From contig NZ_AP024871.1 in the NCBI RefSeq assembly GCF_024346875.1, positions 1,674,001-1,738,000 of the forward strand: DNA of 64,000 bases, read 5' to 3'. The number at the start of each line of letters is the position of its first letter. Position 1 is the first letter of the stretch. The notes beneath the pieces are model-generated. The model was not told the origin of the DNA. It did not search any database and saw nothing but the letters and a program-made list of their open reading frames with translations. The translations under genes were made by a program, and so were the position numbers. This DNA is from Vibrio gallicus. Its GTDB lineage: Bacteria > Pseudomonadota > Gammaproteobacteria > Enterobacterales > Vibrionaceae. This document shows positions 8,231 to 44,196 of this stretch, piece by piece.

Positions 8231-11206
8231 ATGAAAAGAATGTTGATTAACGCTACTCAAAAAGAAGAGTTGCGTGTTGCCCTCGTTGATGGACAGAAGT
8301 TGTTCGATCTCGATATCGAAAGCCCTGGCCATGAATCTAAGAAGGCAAACATATACAAAGGACGTATCACCCGCATAGAACCAAGTCTAGAAGCTGCATT
8401 TGTTGATTACGGCGCTGAAAGACACGGTTTCCTTCCTATTAAAGAAGTGGCTAAAGATTATTTCCCAGCAGGTTACACCTACCAAGGTCGTCCAAGCATT
8501 AAAGAAGTGCTTAAAGAAGGCCAAGAGGTAATTGTACAGGTAGAAAAAGAAGAGCGCGGTAACAAAGGCGCTGCTCTTACAACCTTCGTATCTCTTGCCG
8601 GTAGTTACCTAGTTCTAATGCCAAATAACCCTCGTGCTGGCGGTATTTCTCGCCGTATCGAAGGTGAAGAGCGTACTCAACTTAAGGCTGCACTTAACAC
8701 CCTTGAGTTACCTCAAGGTATGGGCTTAATTGTTCGTACAGCAGGTGTAGGTAAAAGTGCCGAAGAACTAGAGTGGGATCTAAACGTACTTCTAAACCAT
8801 TGGAGAGCGGTTAAAGAGGCGGCTGATGCGAGTCAAGCACCTTTCCTAATCCACCAAGAAAGCAACGTGATTGTGCGTGCAATTCGTGACTATTTACGCC
8901 GTGATATCGGTGAAATACTTATCGATAGCAACACCATCTTTGAGCGTGCTCGCGCACACATCCAACTAGTGCGTCCAGACTTCGTCAACCGTGTTAAAAA
9001 ATACGACGGTGAAGTACCACTATTTAGCCATTATCAAATTGAGAGCCAAATCGATTCTGCTTTCCAGCGTGAAGTTCGTCTTCCTTCTGGTGGCTCAATC
9101 GTTATTGACCCTACTGAAGCACTGACCTCAATCGATATCAACTCTGCTCGTGCAACCAAAGGCAGCGATATTGAAGAAACAGCCCTAAATACTAACCTAG
9201 AAGCGGCCGATGAAATTGCTCGTCAATTACGTCTACGTGACCTAGGTGGTTTAGTGGTTATCGATTTCATCGATATGACGCCTGTTCGCCACCAGCGTGA
9301 AGTAGAAAATCGTATCCGTGAAGCTGCGCGCCTTGACCGTGCACGTGTTCAGATTGGTCGAATCTCTCGCTTTGGTCTATTAGAGATGTCACGCCAACGC
9401 TTGAGCCCATCTCTTGCTGAAGCAAGCCACCACATCTGTCCTCGTTGTAGCGGCACAGGTGTGGTTCGTGATAACGAATCATTAGCTCTATCAGTACTTC
9501 GTCTTATCGAAGAAGAAGCGTTAAAAGATAACACTTGCCAAGTATTAGCTGTGGTTCCTGTTTCTATCGCATCTTACCTATTGAACGAGAAACGTCGCAG
9601 TGTTAACCACATTGAGCGCTCGCAAGAAGTTAAGGTTACTATCGTTCCAAATTCGGATATGGAAACCCCTCACTTTGAGGTTATCCGTGTTCGTGATGGT
9701 GAAGAGCAAAACCTACTTTCATACCTGCTACCTAGCAAGCTAGAAGCAATGAAAGAAGCGGAAGCTCGTGAACCTGCAGAAGTTGAAGCTGCACCGAAGA
9801 AAATCGAGCAGCCAGCATTGCAAGGCTTTGCAACTCCATCTCAAAACGCTCCTGCTCCTGCTCCTGCGCCGAAACCGGCTCCAAAAGCAGAAGTTGCAGC
9901 GGCACAGCCAAAAGCGGAAAAACCGGGTCTTATCTCTCGTATCATTTCAGCTATCGCAGGGCTATTTAGCTCTGAAGAAGAAGTGAAAGAAGAAAAACCT
10001 GAACCGAAGCAGAACGGACCGCAGAGACAACGTCGCGATCGCAATGACAATCGCCGTCGTAACACTCGTGATAATCGTCGTAAGAACAACAATCGTAACC
10101 GTAATACTGAAAAAGACGGTGAACAAGATACTCGTTCAACTGACACTACACGCTCTGATTCTCGTAAAGAGGCTCCTCGTAAAGACAAGCGCACTGATAA
10201 CAAGCGCAAGAATCACAACGAGAAGAAACCAGTTCAAACCAGCAAAGTGGAAGAGCAAGGCAAACAACTTGCTAAACAAGCTGCTGAGCGCCCTGAAGCA
10301 ACTGACAACAAAGATGCATCTGAAGTTAAAACAAGTCAGGTTAAGCAGCGTCGCCAACGTCGTCAGTTAAAACGTCAAGTACGCGTTAAAGACCAACAAG
10401 CAACTGAGCAAAAACCAGTCGCTGCGCAACCACAAGTAGCCGAGACAAAACCCGTTGAAGCGAAATCTGTGGAAGCAACAGTTGAAGCGCCAAAATCACC
10501 AGAGGCTGAAACTCAAGCTAAAGGTGAAGGCAATAAACAACGCCGTAACCGTCGCTCACCGCGCCACCTACGTGCCAGTGGACAACGTCGTCGCCGTGGT
10601 CGTGATCGCAGACCAAACCCATTCCGCCTACGCAAGGGTGGGGTTGCCTCTCCTGAGATGGCAATGGGTAAAGTAATACCTAAATATGACCTGTACAAAG
10701 GCAGAAAGCGTCGCCCTAACAAGTCAAAGTCTATCTTTAGTGGTGTCGCTAAGCCTGAAATGGCTATGGGTAAGATTATTATCCTTAGCAAGGCGCTAGC
10801 AAATGCTCCGCTCAAAGCAAAAGTTGTCGACGCCCCTAAAGCGGAAACAAAACTGATTATCCCTGCAGTAGTACAGTCTGTCGCTCAATTTAAAGCGCCG
10901 GCTCAACCTGTAGTTGCAACCCAAGCAGTTGCAAAACCAGTTGTAAAAGCGCCAGCTAAAGCCGCGGCACCCGCAGCGAAACCTGCACCAGCTAAGGCTC
11001 CTGCTCCAGTCGCTAAGGTTAAGACTTCAATGACGGTTAAAGGTCATGCCCAGTCTCCAATGACCAAAGCATCTGGACCTGACTTCGCTAAAGACATTGA
11101 AATAGAAGCCGCGCCATTGCGTGACTCTCAATATCAAGTCAAAGGCGCAGGTAGCCAAGCGGCGACCAGTCAAGCAGGCTCAGCAATGGCGAAAACCATG
11201 AGCTAA
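8231..11206 (+). CDS. rne: Ribonuclease E
   Basis: Essential endoribonuclease of mRNA decay and rRNA/tRNA maturation and scaffold of the degradosome. 991 residues from ATG at 8231 ([20 protein letters not shown]). N-terminal half: S1 domain, 5' sensor, DNase I-like domain with the catalytic Asp residues in SIDINSA and VIDFIDM, and the zinc-link CPRC. C-terminal half is low complexity: a predicted amphipathic membrane helix ([14 protein letters not shown]), two Arg-rich RNA-binding blocks, a duplicated EMAMGK motif at residues ~804 and ~838, an Ala/Pro/Lys-rich tract, and a conserved end likely to bind PNPase. It has its own leader and a strong terminator. Confidence 0.98.
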
Positions 11207-14637: not shown

Positions 14638-14673
14638 GAAAAAAGCCGACCGAACCCAAAGGTTCGACCGACT
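14638..14673 (-). terminator. Terminator of the GGGtGRT/NifU-like operon
   Basis: On the minus strand: a 13-bp stem with a few G-U pairs (14644-14656 with 14661-14673), 4-nt loop and a TTTTTTC tract. It is 60 bp after the stop codon at 14735 and before the MATE start, so it ends the upstream two-gene operon. Confidence 0.88.
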
Positions 14674-14734
14674 TAAATGCTCATCAGCTGCGACTCATTA
14701 TATTTACAAGTGCCTAAGCCCTTCTTTAACGCTA

Positions 14735-15721
14735 TTAAGCAGCTCGCTTAGCACGAAGTACCTCATCAACGGTCACGGCTAAAGCAACAGATGCGCCTAC
14801 CATAGGGTTATTGCCCATACCGATAAAGCCCATCATGGCGACGTGGGCTGGAACCGAAGAACTACCCGCAAACTGAGCGTCAGCGTGCATACGGCCCATA
14901 GTATCAGTCATACCGTATGAAGCAGGACCTGCCGCTACGTTATCTGGGTGTAGAGTACGACCAGTACCACCGCCTGATGCTACCGAGAAATAAGGCAGTC
15001 CATCACGGTTACATTCGGCTTTATAGATACCTGCTACCGGATGTTGGAAGCGGGTTGGGTTGGTTGAGTTACCTGTGATACTGACATCCACACCAGCACG
15101 GCGCATGATAGCCACACCCTCACGTACTTCATCAGCGCCGTAGCAATCAATCTCGCCGCGAGGCCCTTGTGAGAAACGGCGACGTTCAACTTCTTTAAGC
15201 TCGCCAGTATCGTAGTCATATTGAGTGCGTACATAGGTAAAACCGTTGATGCGCGAGATCAAATACGCCGCATCTTTACCTAAGCCGTTAAGAATAACCT
15301 TAAGGGGTGCAGTACGTGCTTTATTCACGTTAAGTGCAATCTTAATAGCGCCCTCTGCGGCTGCAAAAGATTCGTGACCGGCGAGGAATGCAAAGCAAGT
15401 ACTCTTTTCATCAAGTAGACGTGCCGCCAGTGCCCCGTGTCCAATCCCAACCTGGCGTTGGTCGGCAACACTACCTGGTTTACAAGAAGCCTGTAGACCT
15501 TTACCTATCGCTTCTGCCGCTTCAATAGATGACTGACAGTCGGTAAATAGTGCGTATGCAGTGCCAAGGGTATAAGCCTCAACGGCACTTTCAAAGGCAA
15601 TCGGTTGGGTTTCCATTACTTGAGTGCGAGTATCAATACCAAATTCTTGGCAATATGCGAACGCTTCTTCTAAAGAGTTCATGTTCATTTCGGCTAGTAG
15701 AGCTTGAGTTGCTTGGTTCAT
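14735..15721 (-). CDS. GGGtGRT family protein, function unknown
   Basis: 328 residues. Recognised from the signature SGGGTGRTLHPDN near residue 250, which gives the family its name; other conserved-looking parts are VGIGHGALAARLLDEKS, FLAGHESFAAAEGAIK, and GFIGMGNNPMVGAS near the end. Several His, Cys and Gly-rich loops suggest a metal or nucleotide site, but no reaction is established. No signal peptide or membrane helix. It follows a NifU/IscU-like gene by 19 bp and shares its terminator; the two-gene pairing is what I recall for this family in other bacteria. The pairing suggests a role in, or dependence on, Fe-S assembly. This is an inference. Confidence 0.8.
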   Translation of the reverse strand: MNQATQALLAEMNMNSLEEAFAYCQEFGIDTRTQVMETQPIAFESAVEAYTLGTAYALFTDCQSSIEAAEAIGKGLQASCKPGSVADQRQVGIGHGALAARLLDEKSTCFAFLAGHESFAAAEGAIKIALNVNKARTAPLKVILNGLGKDAAYLISRINGFTYVRTQYDYDTGELKEVERRRFSQGPRGEIDCYGADEVREGVAIMRRAGVDVSITGNSTNPTRFQHPVAGIYKAECNRDGLPYFSVASGGGTGRTLHPDNVAAGPASYGMTDTMGRMHADAQFAGSSSVPAHVAMMGFIGMGNNPMVGASVALAVTVDEVLRAKRAA

Positions 15722-15740
15722 GATTCAATCCTCTTTAGAA

Positions 15741-16433
15741 TTACTGTTGACGTGGGTTAATGGTTTTCACTGCTTCATCGAAGCGACCGTAGGTGCCTGA
15801 TGCTTGTTGTAGAGCAGTGTCTGCGTCAACGCCGGCAGTGATTGCCTTCATAAATTTACCCAAGTTCATATATTCATAGCCGATAACTTCATCGTTCTCG
15901 TCTAGTGCCATACGTGTCACATAGCCTTCCGCTATCTCCATGTAGCGTACACCTTTAGCTTTAGTGGCATAGCTTGTACCCACTTGGCTACGTAGGGTTT
16001 GACCTAGATCTTCTAGGGCTTCACCTACTTCTAAGCCACCTTCCGAGAAAGCAGATTGTGAACGGCCATACGTAAATTGAAGGAAGATTTCTCGCATTGC
16101 AACGTTGATTGCATCACACACGAGATCGGTGTTCATTGCTTCAAGGATGGTTTTACCCGTTAATATTTCAGACGCCATTGCCGCAGATTGAGTCATGCCT
16201 GAGCAACCAATCGTTTCGATTAGCACTTCTTCAATGATGCCTTGTTTAACGTTTAGAGTCAGCTTTGCAGCGCCTTGTTGCGGCGCACAAGCACCAACAC
16301 CGTGGCTTAGGCCAGAGATTGCGATAACCTCTTTCGGGTTGATCATTCTTCCCTCAACAGGGATAGGAGAGGATGCATGAAGGTCGCCACGTTGAATCGG
16401 GCACATTGATTGAATTTCGTCGGTGTAATGCAT
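15741..16433 (-). CDS. NifU/IscU-like Fe-S scaffold-family protein
   Basis: 230 residues. The N-terminal two thirds resembles the NifU/IscU scaffold fold, with three separated cysteines in the expected order (GACAPQQ near residue 49, TIGCSGM near 76 and DLVCDAI near 104); an extra Cys lies in MCPIQ at residue 11. The C-terminal part (YMEIAEGYVTRMALDENDEVIGYEY) is not found in normal IscU. It is first in an operon with the GGGtGRT gene, unlike the isc or suf clusters. Expected cytoplasmic. Whether it really assembles clusters, or carries a cofactor for its partner, is unknown. Confidence 0.78.
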   Translation of the reverse strand: MHYTDEIQSMCPIQRGDLHASSPIPVEGRMINPKEVIAISGLSHGVGACAPQQGAAKLTLNVKQGIIEEVLIETIGCSGMTQSAAMASEILTGKTILEAMNTDLVCDAINVAMREIFLQFTYGRSQSAFSEGGLEVGEALEDLGQTLRSQVGTSYATKAKGVRYMEIAEGYVTRMALDENDEVIGYEYMNLGKFMKAITAGVDADTALQQASGTYGRFDEAVKTINPRQQ

Positions 16434-16487
16434 GTTGTTTTCCGCTCGGTTAGTTTAAAACTTGGGAAAACAGCTTAAGGCGAGTGT

Positions 16488-16503: not shown

Positions 16504-16627
16504 TATGATTTGGCGACTTTTCCTACCAAATCGAATGCGCAATATTGCCAATGCCCCCCTTTTCTATTTGAGTAAAAGGGTAACGCTGTTTTCGATTTTA
16601 GTAGGAGTCATTATCCAAACAAGGCTT

Positions 16628-16646
16628 TTTGATAACGTATATCAAA
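16628..16646. promoter_or_regulatory. Candidate operator, 19-bp palindrome
   Basis: Perfect 7-bp half sites TTTGATA / TATCAAA with a 5-nt centre, about 195 bp before the NifU-like gene and about 125 bp after the stop codon of the neighbouring phosphodiesterase-fold gene. Half-site TTGAT recalls FNR/CRP-family sites, but the spacing is three bases too long. Confidence 0.4.
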
Positions 16647-16771
16647 GCTGTTTGGCGGTTCAATTAGGTGGAACTCCATCACCGTTACCCAATAATCTAG
16701 GTGAGTATCCATAGGCAGGCAAGGGACATTCATGCAATGTAAGATTGCTCAATTTTTAAGCTAGCCCAAAT

Positions 16772-43695: not shown

Positions 43696-43921
43696 CACCA
43701 GACAAAAACCCATCTCCCCACTCAAACACCAACTCAGGCAGTTTGAATCGCTAGATCTACCAAAACCTATGGCTTATCGCTATACGATATTACGCCACCC
43801 CAAAAAACATAACAAACATCATTCATATGCATGAGCTGAGCACTGCAATACATCTATTATTAATATGAATTAGACTTGCACTGTGTAACCAATTTGATAC
43901 CGTATGCCCGTCGCAAGACAC

Positions 43922-44053
43922 ACTTCAGGGCGGGGTGAGATTCCCCACCGGTGGTAAAAGCATTGCTTGAGCCCACGAGCGCCTTCGAATACCGAAGGGT
44001 CAGCAGATCTGGTGTAAACCCAGAGCCGACGGTTATAGTCCGGATGAAAGAAG
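43922..44053 (+). promoter_or_regulatory. FMN riboswitch (RFN element)
   Basis: Recognised from the aptamer: GGGCGGGGTGA, CCCCACCGGTGG, GAGCCCACGAGC, GGGTCAGCAGAT, and the highly conserved end GAGCCGACGGTTATAGTCC plus GGATGAAAG. FMN binding represses expression of the gene behind it. The 140 bp after the aptamer hold a stem CTAGC/GCTAG (44063-44079 region) and a GCAG/CTGT pair near a TTTTTT run before the ATG. These are candidates for the switching stem, but the mechanism (termination or translation) is not settled. Confidence 0.95.
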
Positions 44054-44196
44054 TAAATCACACTAGCCTCAAGCTAGCGTAAGTATTGTTGAGCAGAAAC
44101 ATTCAATTCAGTATCTACTGGATAGTATCTTCTGTGCAGCAAGCTGTGCCTCTTTTTTGCCCCTGCTACGAATTGACTTAATACTCGGAGATCATC

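Follow-up and report, generated by a model that had tools for sequence, protein, structure and literature searches.

A fluoride riboswitch precedes a NifU-like and GGGtGRT gene pair in Vibrio gallicus, a candidate iron-dependent two-subunit enzyme

The window analysed is a 64-kb stretch (64,000 nucleotides) of the Vibrio gallicus genome. Two genes, called U and G here, lie on its minus strand in the order U to G, 5′ to 3′, with an intergenic gap of 19 nt. The features of the locus are given below.

About 16700-16434, minus strand: leader of the U-G operon.
16595..16692, minus strand: fluoride riboswitch aptamer (RF01734) in the 5′ leader of the operon; cmscan 48.4 bits, gathering threshold 34.
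16585..16593, minus strand: GAAAACAGC, just 3′ of the aptamer; 9-bp complement of 16474-16466.
16466..16474, minus strand: GCTGTTTTC, able to pair with the aptamer-side strand or, partly, with the ribosome-binding region.
16436..16443, minus strand: GGAAAACA, putative Shine-Dalgarno region of U; its complement TGTTTTCC overlaps 16474-16466.
15741..16433, minus strand: U, a NifU/IscU-like protein of 230 aa with invariant C49, C77 and C106 (open reading frame call, NifU_N match).
14735..15721, minus strand: G, a GGGtGRT protein (PF14057) of 328 aa with a predicted alpha/beta core and a low-confidence glycine-rich loop at 251-268.
14643..14674, minus strand: terminator-like hairpin after G; 14 pairs and a T run.

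The hairpin is placed between G and the downstream MATE gene; by count alone it is weak, one having been found against 2.1 expected in shuffled sequence. The upstream neighbour of the pair is a gene of the exo/endonuclease-phosphatase family, and isc and suf genes are absent among the immediate neighbours in the window. A genome search found a single copy of G in V. gallicus. An earlier note, made from the letters of this DNA, had described a compact operon outside any isc/suf cluster with a partner that carries a GGGTGRT signature. The 19-nt gap, the common strand and the hairpin before the MATE gene agree with a compact operon, and the neighbourhood agrees with its position outside isc/suf, although suf genes lie close by in two Collinsella records. 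The partner is a member of PF14057 (547.8 bits against a cut-off of 27), and it is a full-length one, profile positions 12-326 of 327 being covered. What the note overlooked is the main feature of the locus, the fluoride riboswitch ahead of the operon.

The RF01734 match has an E-value of 2.5e-10 over the 64-kb window, lies about 160 nt upstream of U and is the only fluoride riboswitch found in the V. gallicus genome. Elsewhere in the window, an FMN riboswitch (RF00050) was recorded at 43917-44059 on the plus strand with 112.7 bits. Of 20 further loci, 18 gave an Rfam match to RF01734 before U, as did L020 and L024; Shewanella and Photobacterium loci likewise have it ahead of U. With a model built from the Rfam-found loci, the element was found before U in L092. 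Counting the window, 21 of the 25 gammaproteobacterial loci have the element, and those without it are L009, L010 and two from Aeromonadales and Succinivibrio bins (L060, L063). Among 41 relatives searched, it stands directly before U in all 12 G-bearing genomes of the genus. CrcB is encoded elsewhere in each of these 12 genomes, which argues that the pair is an additional fluoride response and not the exporter. Two congeners that lack G (G310 and G320; loci L192 and L193) have the riboswitch before an EriC-type CLC gene and are without CrcB. Under the switch, the EriC-type exporter and the U-G pair seem to replace each other.

Beyond the gammaproteobacterial loci, RF01734 was found at the pair in L002, which belongs to another class of the phylum, and in L191 of the Clostridium class. 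The latter has riboswitches at 8539-8623 and 10614-10702, one before the pair and the second before the gene for a MutS_V protein directly downstream of it. None of 19 unselected Clostridia loci and none of 18 Bacteroidales loci have a riboswitch at the pair, and it was not found in 74 of 76 further loci, the exceptions being L092 and L191 (which was included because it was already known to be positive). Across 148 Clostridium-class genomes, the riboswitch (28 genomes over the cut-off) and G (66 genomes) are independent, 11 genomes having both against 12.5 expected (counted by hand); the riboswitch is at the pair in one of the 66 G-positive genomes. This independence and the near absence of the element at the pair indicate that the fluoride link is lineage-specific and not family-wide. 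The 2010 crcB-motif paper (PMC2864571), in the main-text passages available, makes no mention of NifU, and among the literature matches listed, as far as their available text goes, none joins a fluoride riboswitch to NifU or GGGtGRT.

The arrangement of the leader suggests how the switch could act. In 12 of 17 leaders the strand just 3′ of the aptamer (GAAAACAG or similar) is able to form a helix with a second strand (CTGTTTTC or similar), and in 9 of 17 this second strand could also mask the ribosome-binding region (GGAAAACA or similar). Competing helices of this kind would constitute a translational on-switch. The leader in the window is more stable than its shuffles (z -3.4). An inverted repeat in this leader was rejected as a separate element, as it falls inside the variable stem of the riboswitch. 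A pattern scan with mismatches gave no shared FNR or Rex site in 22 gammaproteobacterial leaders. A CRP-like word, TGTGA-N6-TCTA, is present upstream of the riboswitch in 12 of the 22 (L003-L007, L013-L018, L021) and may be part of the promoter. The 41 Bacteroidales-type and 22 Clostridia-type leaders yielded only AT-rich words as motifs.

To describe the distribution of the pair, 99 loci were collected, mostly from the nearest relatives, and 98 of them encode G. U is upstream on the same strand in all 98 G loci; a small ORF lies between the two genes in L064 and L084, and U is cut by the contig end in L090. The remaining locus, L008, was rejected: its match is a threonine synthase that scores under the family cut-off. 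The sample of 148 genomes from the class of a Clostridium is less biased than the 98-locus set and hence carries more weight. G is present in 66 of these genomes, and U accompanies it in 66 of 66, against one of the 82 G-negative genomes, where the lone U is a fragment of 169 residues. The count of U refers to 67 genomes with a match above 300 bits; 23 genomes with nothing but weak, IscU-like matches were left out. The earlier note had regarded a cofactor link as weak should the scaffold-like gene occur mostly without its partner. This is almost never seen, as 66 of the 67 Clostridia genomes with U carry G.

The distribution of G is patchy. Within the phylum to which the window belongs, 7 of 299 genomes score above the cut-off, and within its genus 12 of 25 genomes have G. 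For a Bacteroidales bin, the order gave 20 of 119 genomes (centre included) and the phylum one of 148, that one being the centre itself. An E. coli collection gave no DNA match. In 80 loci, none of the other genes recurs next to the pair; the largest further clusters were ORFs present in 12 loci (antisense to U-G), in 10 (resembling MetH by eye), in 9 (an ABC ATPase), in 8 and in 6. In Collinsella (L075 and L225), the pair comes shortly after suf genes, annotated as sufCBDSU in L225, and a transposase gene intervenes; U is annotated there as "nitrogen-fixing protein NifU". A canonical NifU_N protein is encoded besides U in 8 of 10 genomes examined; U is the sole NifU_N protein found in the other two, both Bacteroidales.

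The relationship of U to the IscU/NifU scaffolds was analysed residue by residue. U matches PF01592 (NifU_N) with 24.3 bits against a cut-off of 22, over residues 31-101 only; against the NCBIfam models for IscU, NifU and SufU it stays far under the cut-offs. C49, C77 and C106 are conserved without exception (96 of 96 sequences). When U is aligned pairwise with five canonical relatives, C77 corresponds to the second IscU cysteine every time. C49 is aligned with the first cysteine in two (with a gap behind), stands opposite a valine in one and lies outside the alignment in two, and a phmmer alignment also puts it ahead of the usual cysteine. C106 meets a cysteine in none of the five; the profile alignment spans only residues 55-105 of U, and the second and third cysteines are 29 residues apart in U versus 43 in the relatives. 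The aspartate two residues after the first cysteine is absent, the motif being CAP in 32 of 32 U sequences (A50 and P51 invariant) versus CGD in 5 of 5 IscU relatives. Absent from U as well is the LP..K.HC segment with the third cysteine. No Pfam family matches the C-terminal part (about 110-230) above cut-off, and an internal duplication within U was rejected as not significant. By its sequence, then, U is IscU-like, yet not an IscU, and the label "scaffold" is unsupported since the residues that define IscU are missing. The conservation of the three cysteines and a distinct C-terminal part, both raised in the earlier note, are borne out. Its placing of the cysteines in IscU order holds firmly for C77 only, given the alignment of C49 in 2 of 5 cases and of C106 in 0 of 5 and the spacing of 29 versus 43.

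In G, C109 is invariant in 98 of 98 sequences and C24 and C193 are present in 95 of 98; the TGNSTN and GGGTGRT loops are invariant. A structure model from a 100-sequence alignment predicts an alpha/beta core with the glycine-rich loop 251-268 at low confidence, an earlier 9-sequence model having left the motif region unresolved; missing fold matches to this model are no proof of a new fold. Comparison with the SIS protein GmhA by hhalign aligned the TGNSTN stretch with SGNSAN only, at a non-significant E of 0.1. No family other than PF14057 was listed by hmmscan for five G proteins. A PLP fold-type II enzyme was set aside, the matches to threonine synthase and TrpB being sub-threshold and none appearing among the 50 structural matches listed. 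In literature from 2012 on, the available text of the papers reached by our searches gives no function for the GGGtGRT family. The earlier description of the pair as undescribed is therefore right in part: both families are named and present in published expression tables, and the portions of those sources available give no function.

Published expression data, taken from the tables and excerpts available, connect the pair with iron. In the C. pasteurianum proteome (PMC5395762, Table 2), iron raises G 7.1-fold (early) and 2.2-fold (late), and a NifU-related protein with the neighbouring locus tag 2.4-3.7-fold (early) and 1.6-2.9-fold (late); enolase is higher without iron, 4.1-4.8-fold early and 1.8-4.0-fold late. 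Iron depletion lowers the B. thetaiotaomicron pair 11-12.8-fold (P 0); a three-gene row that includes eno goes up 2.0-7.7-fold, which is not significant (P 0.144; PMC10434189). In chicken-gut anaerobes, GGGtGRT proteins show high expression across distant taxa; in the Bacteroidetes of that data set phosphoglycerate mutase and enolase are low or none and PEP carboxykinase is high, and the authors proposed serine synthesis as the outlet of 3-phosphoglycerate (PMC11204068). Blautia and Megasphaera express GGGtGRT alongside glycolysis down to pyruvate in the same excerpt. In the rumen, NifU and GGGtGRT of several species are grouped with PEP carboxykinase and pyruvate phosphate dikinase (PMC7035244, in the part available).

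The explanation that we favour, with a probability of roughly 0.45, is that U-G is an iron-dependent two-subunit enzyme bypassing a magnesium enzyme blocked by fluoride. U and G would act as one iron-dependent protein complex in which the three invariant cysteines of U hold an iron-sulphur cluster or iron, and the TGNSTN and GGGTGRT loops of G give a pocket for a phosphate-type ligand. With one fully invariant cysteine in G, the cluster would sit on U or between the subunits. Under ample iron, anaerobes would run the complex. In Vibrionaceae, Shewanella and a small number of others, sensing of fluoride by the riboswitch would free the ribosome-binding site of U, and the induced pair would take over a reaction normally carried out by a magnesium-dependent, fluoride-sensitive enzyme. 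A substitute enzyme is suggested because the pair follows iron, would be deployed on fluoride by facultative bacteria and is expressed under iron-rich conditions in anaerobes.

This explanation is favoured by the obligate pairing (98 of 98 loci; 66 of 66 versus 1 of 82 genomes), by the riboswitch before U and CrcB elsewhere in 12 of 12 congeners, by the invariance of the cysteines (96 of 96 for U, 98 of 98 for C109 of G), by the Collinsella pair near suf, by the published responses of the pair to iron and of enolase, and by the low or missing phosphoglycerate mutase and enolase of the chicken-gut Bacteroidetes despite high PEP carboxykinase. It is weakened because the pairs of anaerobes almost never have the riboswitch (0 of 19, 0 of 18, 1 of 66) and because G and riboswitch are independent in the 148 Clostridium-class genomes; that G has a single fully invariant cysteine and that C106 aligns with no IscU cysteine are further points against it. 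The odds given rest on cysteine invariance and not on membership of U in IscU. The support is of different kinds: published data give the link to iron, genomic data that to fluoride, and the enzyme activity is what we infer. The dedicated cofactor assembly, or metal-dependent enzyme with its own scaffold, that the earlier note had proposed gains from the iron link; its scaffold part is doubtful, as U is without the defining IscU residues.

Fluoride blocks magnesium-dependent enzymes, and enolase is the textbook case. Enolase dehydrates a beta-hydroxy acid, as do [4Fe-4S] hydro-lyases with three cysteine ligands. This shared dehydration chemistry makes the enolase step (2-phosphoglycerate to phosphoenolpyruvate), or its bypass, the most pointed candidate for the substituted reaction, albeit a tentative one that is unlikely when taken by itself. 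Slightly less likely again is the specific form in which U-G is a non-homologous second enolase or bypass lyase, an iron-sulphur hydro-lyase making phosphoenolpyruvate without the fluoride-blocked magnesium site. Anaerobes would then fall back on magnesium-enolase in low iron, and facultative marine bacteria would keep the pair in reserve. The enolase proposal is weakened because its supporting data were picked since fluoride hits enolase, one set being not significant, and because Blautia and Megasphaera express GGGtGRT with full glycolysis in a study whose authors favour serine synthesis as the outlet (PMC11204068, in the excerpt available).

Several of the same observations could be attributed to other causes. 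The pair may be a dedicated iron-sulphur or iron-delivery module, with U as scaffold and G as accessory or client, that maintains other iron-sulphur enzymes and is induced as fluoride disturbs iron or cluster handling. We regard this as possible, though on the unlikely side. The NifU_N match of U, the suf genes close by in Collinsella and the two Bacteroidales genomes of 10 in which U is the only NifU_N protein found are in line with it. Expression of the pair tracks iron like that of the Fe-S proteins in the same C. pasteurianum table (PMC5395762, in the part available); it drops in low iron, contrary to what is expected of a repair system. The IscU aspartate and the LP..K.HC segment are missing from U, 8 of 10 genomes have a canonical NifU_N protein besides it, and the 80 loci have no recurrent third gene beside the pair.

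Riboswitch control with CrcB elsewhere would also fit a pair that counters fluoride damage otherwise, by sequestering fluoride or metal-fluoride or by clearing a metabolite that piles up, the zinc or iron of U being structural only. SufU-type relatives are zinc proteins, which would suit this explanation, though the SufU model match of U is weak. It appears improbable, as gut anaerobes widely have the pair without the riboswitch and its expression tracks iron in the available parts of PMC5395762 and PMC10434189. A somewhat smaller chance still is given to the riboswitch being inherited regulatory baggage of one gammaproteobacterial lineage, uninformative on function. Most cases are indeed from Vibrionaceae and Shewanella, and the Clostridia sample has no riboswitch-G association. 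The element is, however, present in 21 of 25 gammaproteobacterial loci, and separate instances occur in another class (L002) and in a clostridial locus, L191, where the MutS-like gene just downstream has a fluoride riboswitch of its own.

The 3′ end of the G gene has a property of its own. An extra copy of its last 23-113 nt was found downstream in 8 of 92 loci (L025, L028, L029, L034, L051, L056, L074, L082) and upstream in none, six of the 98 loci having been left out. The copies in L034 and L051, no more than 200 nt away, could be local duplications. A tail-only second protein match is present in 4 of the 66 G-positive Clostridium-class genomes, and a Phage_integrase gene directly follows the complete G gene in L168 and L169. 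Viral contigs carry G or its tail at 21 loci (L203-L223), and an integrase relative is 83-176 nt from the G tail in 5 of 22 loci examined. On one viral contig (L208, L216), G lies at one end, some 14 kb away from the tail, as expected for a provirus between two attachment sites. Judged from these sequences, L167-L171 among them, the 3′ end of G is a recurrent insertion site of prophages and islands. The elements thus seem to supply a new 3′ end so that the gene stays whole. Possible cargo at the site comprises two short genes that look, by eye, like a nucleotidyltransferase pair (L082:7037-7793) and AAA_14-DUF4143 ATPases identified by Pfam (L167:2119-3483, L171:627-2003).

Gut and rumen anaerobes express GGGtGRT proteins well, according to the parts of the expression studies available, and the riboswitch together with the published iron response gives a concrete handle on the family. 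The handle points to fluoride-insensitive, iron-dependent chemistry at a fluoride-blocked step. Should the enolase proposal be true, a non-homologous enzyme would be added to central glycolysis. The location of an insertion site for gut prophages and islands is a separate gain.

Among known systems, the three-cysteine [4Fe-4S] hydro-lyases include aconitase, fumarase and serine dehydratase. By analogy, the three invariant cysteines of U (96 of 96) and the proposed dehydration of a beta-hydroxy acid would resemble them; they differ in that a sequence relation to U-G was not found. The IscU/NifU N-terminal scaffold (PF01592) shares with U a profile match above cut-off and the second cysteine (aligned 5 of 5). 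U differs from it in an extra C-terminal part of 120 residues, the obligate partner G, the missing aspartate behind the first cysteine, the missing LP..K.HC, the other spacing of the third cysteine and a first cysteine aligned in 2 of 5. With the SIS phosphosugar-binding fold (GmhA), the profile comparison of G is not significant, other alpha/beta folds scoring equally. The fluoride riboswitch regulon (crcB motif; CrcB/Fluc, EriC-F, MutS, formate hydrogenlyase) shares the RF01734 aptamer with the U-G leader, and differs in that the genes controlled at the U-G locus are not exporters. Of the GGGtGRT family (PF14057) G is a full-length member, and what is new here is its regulator, its obligate partner and its predicted fold.
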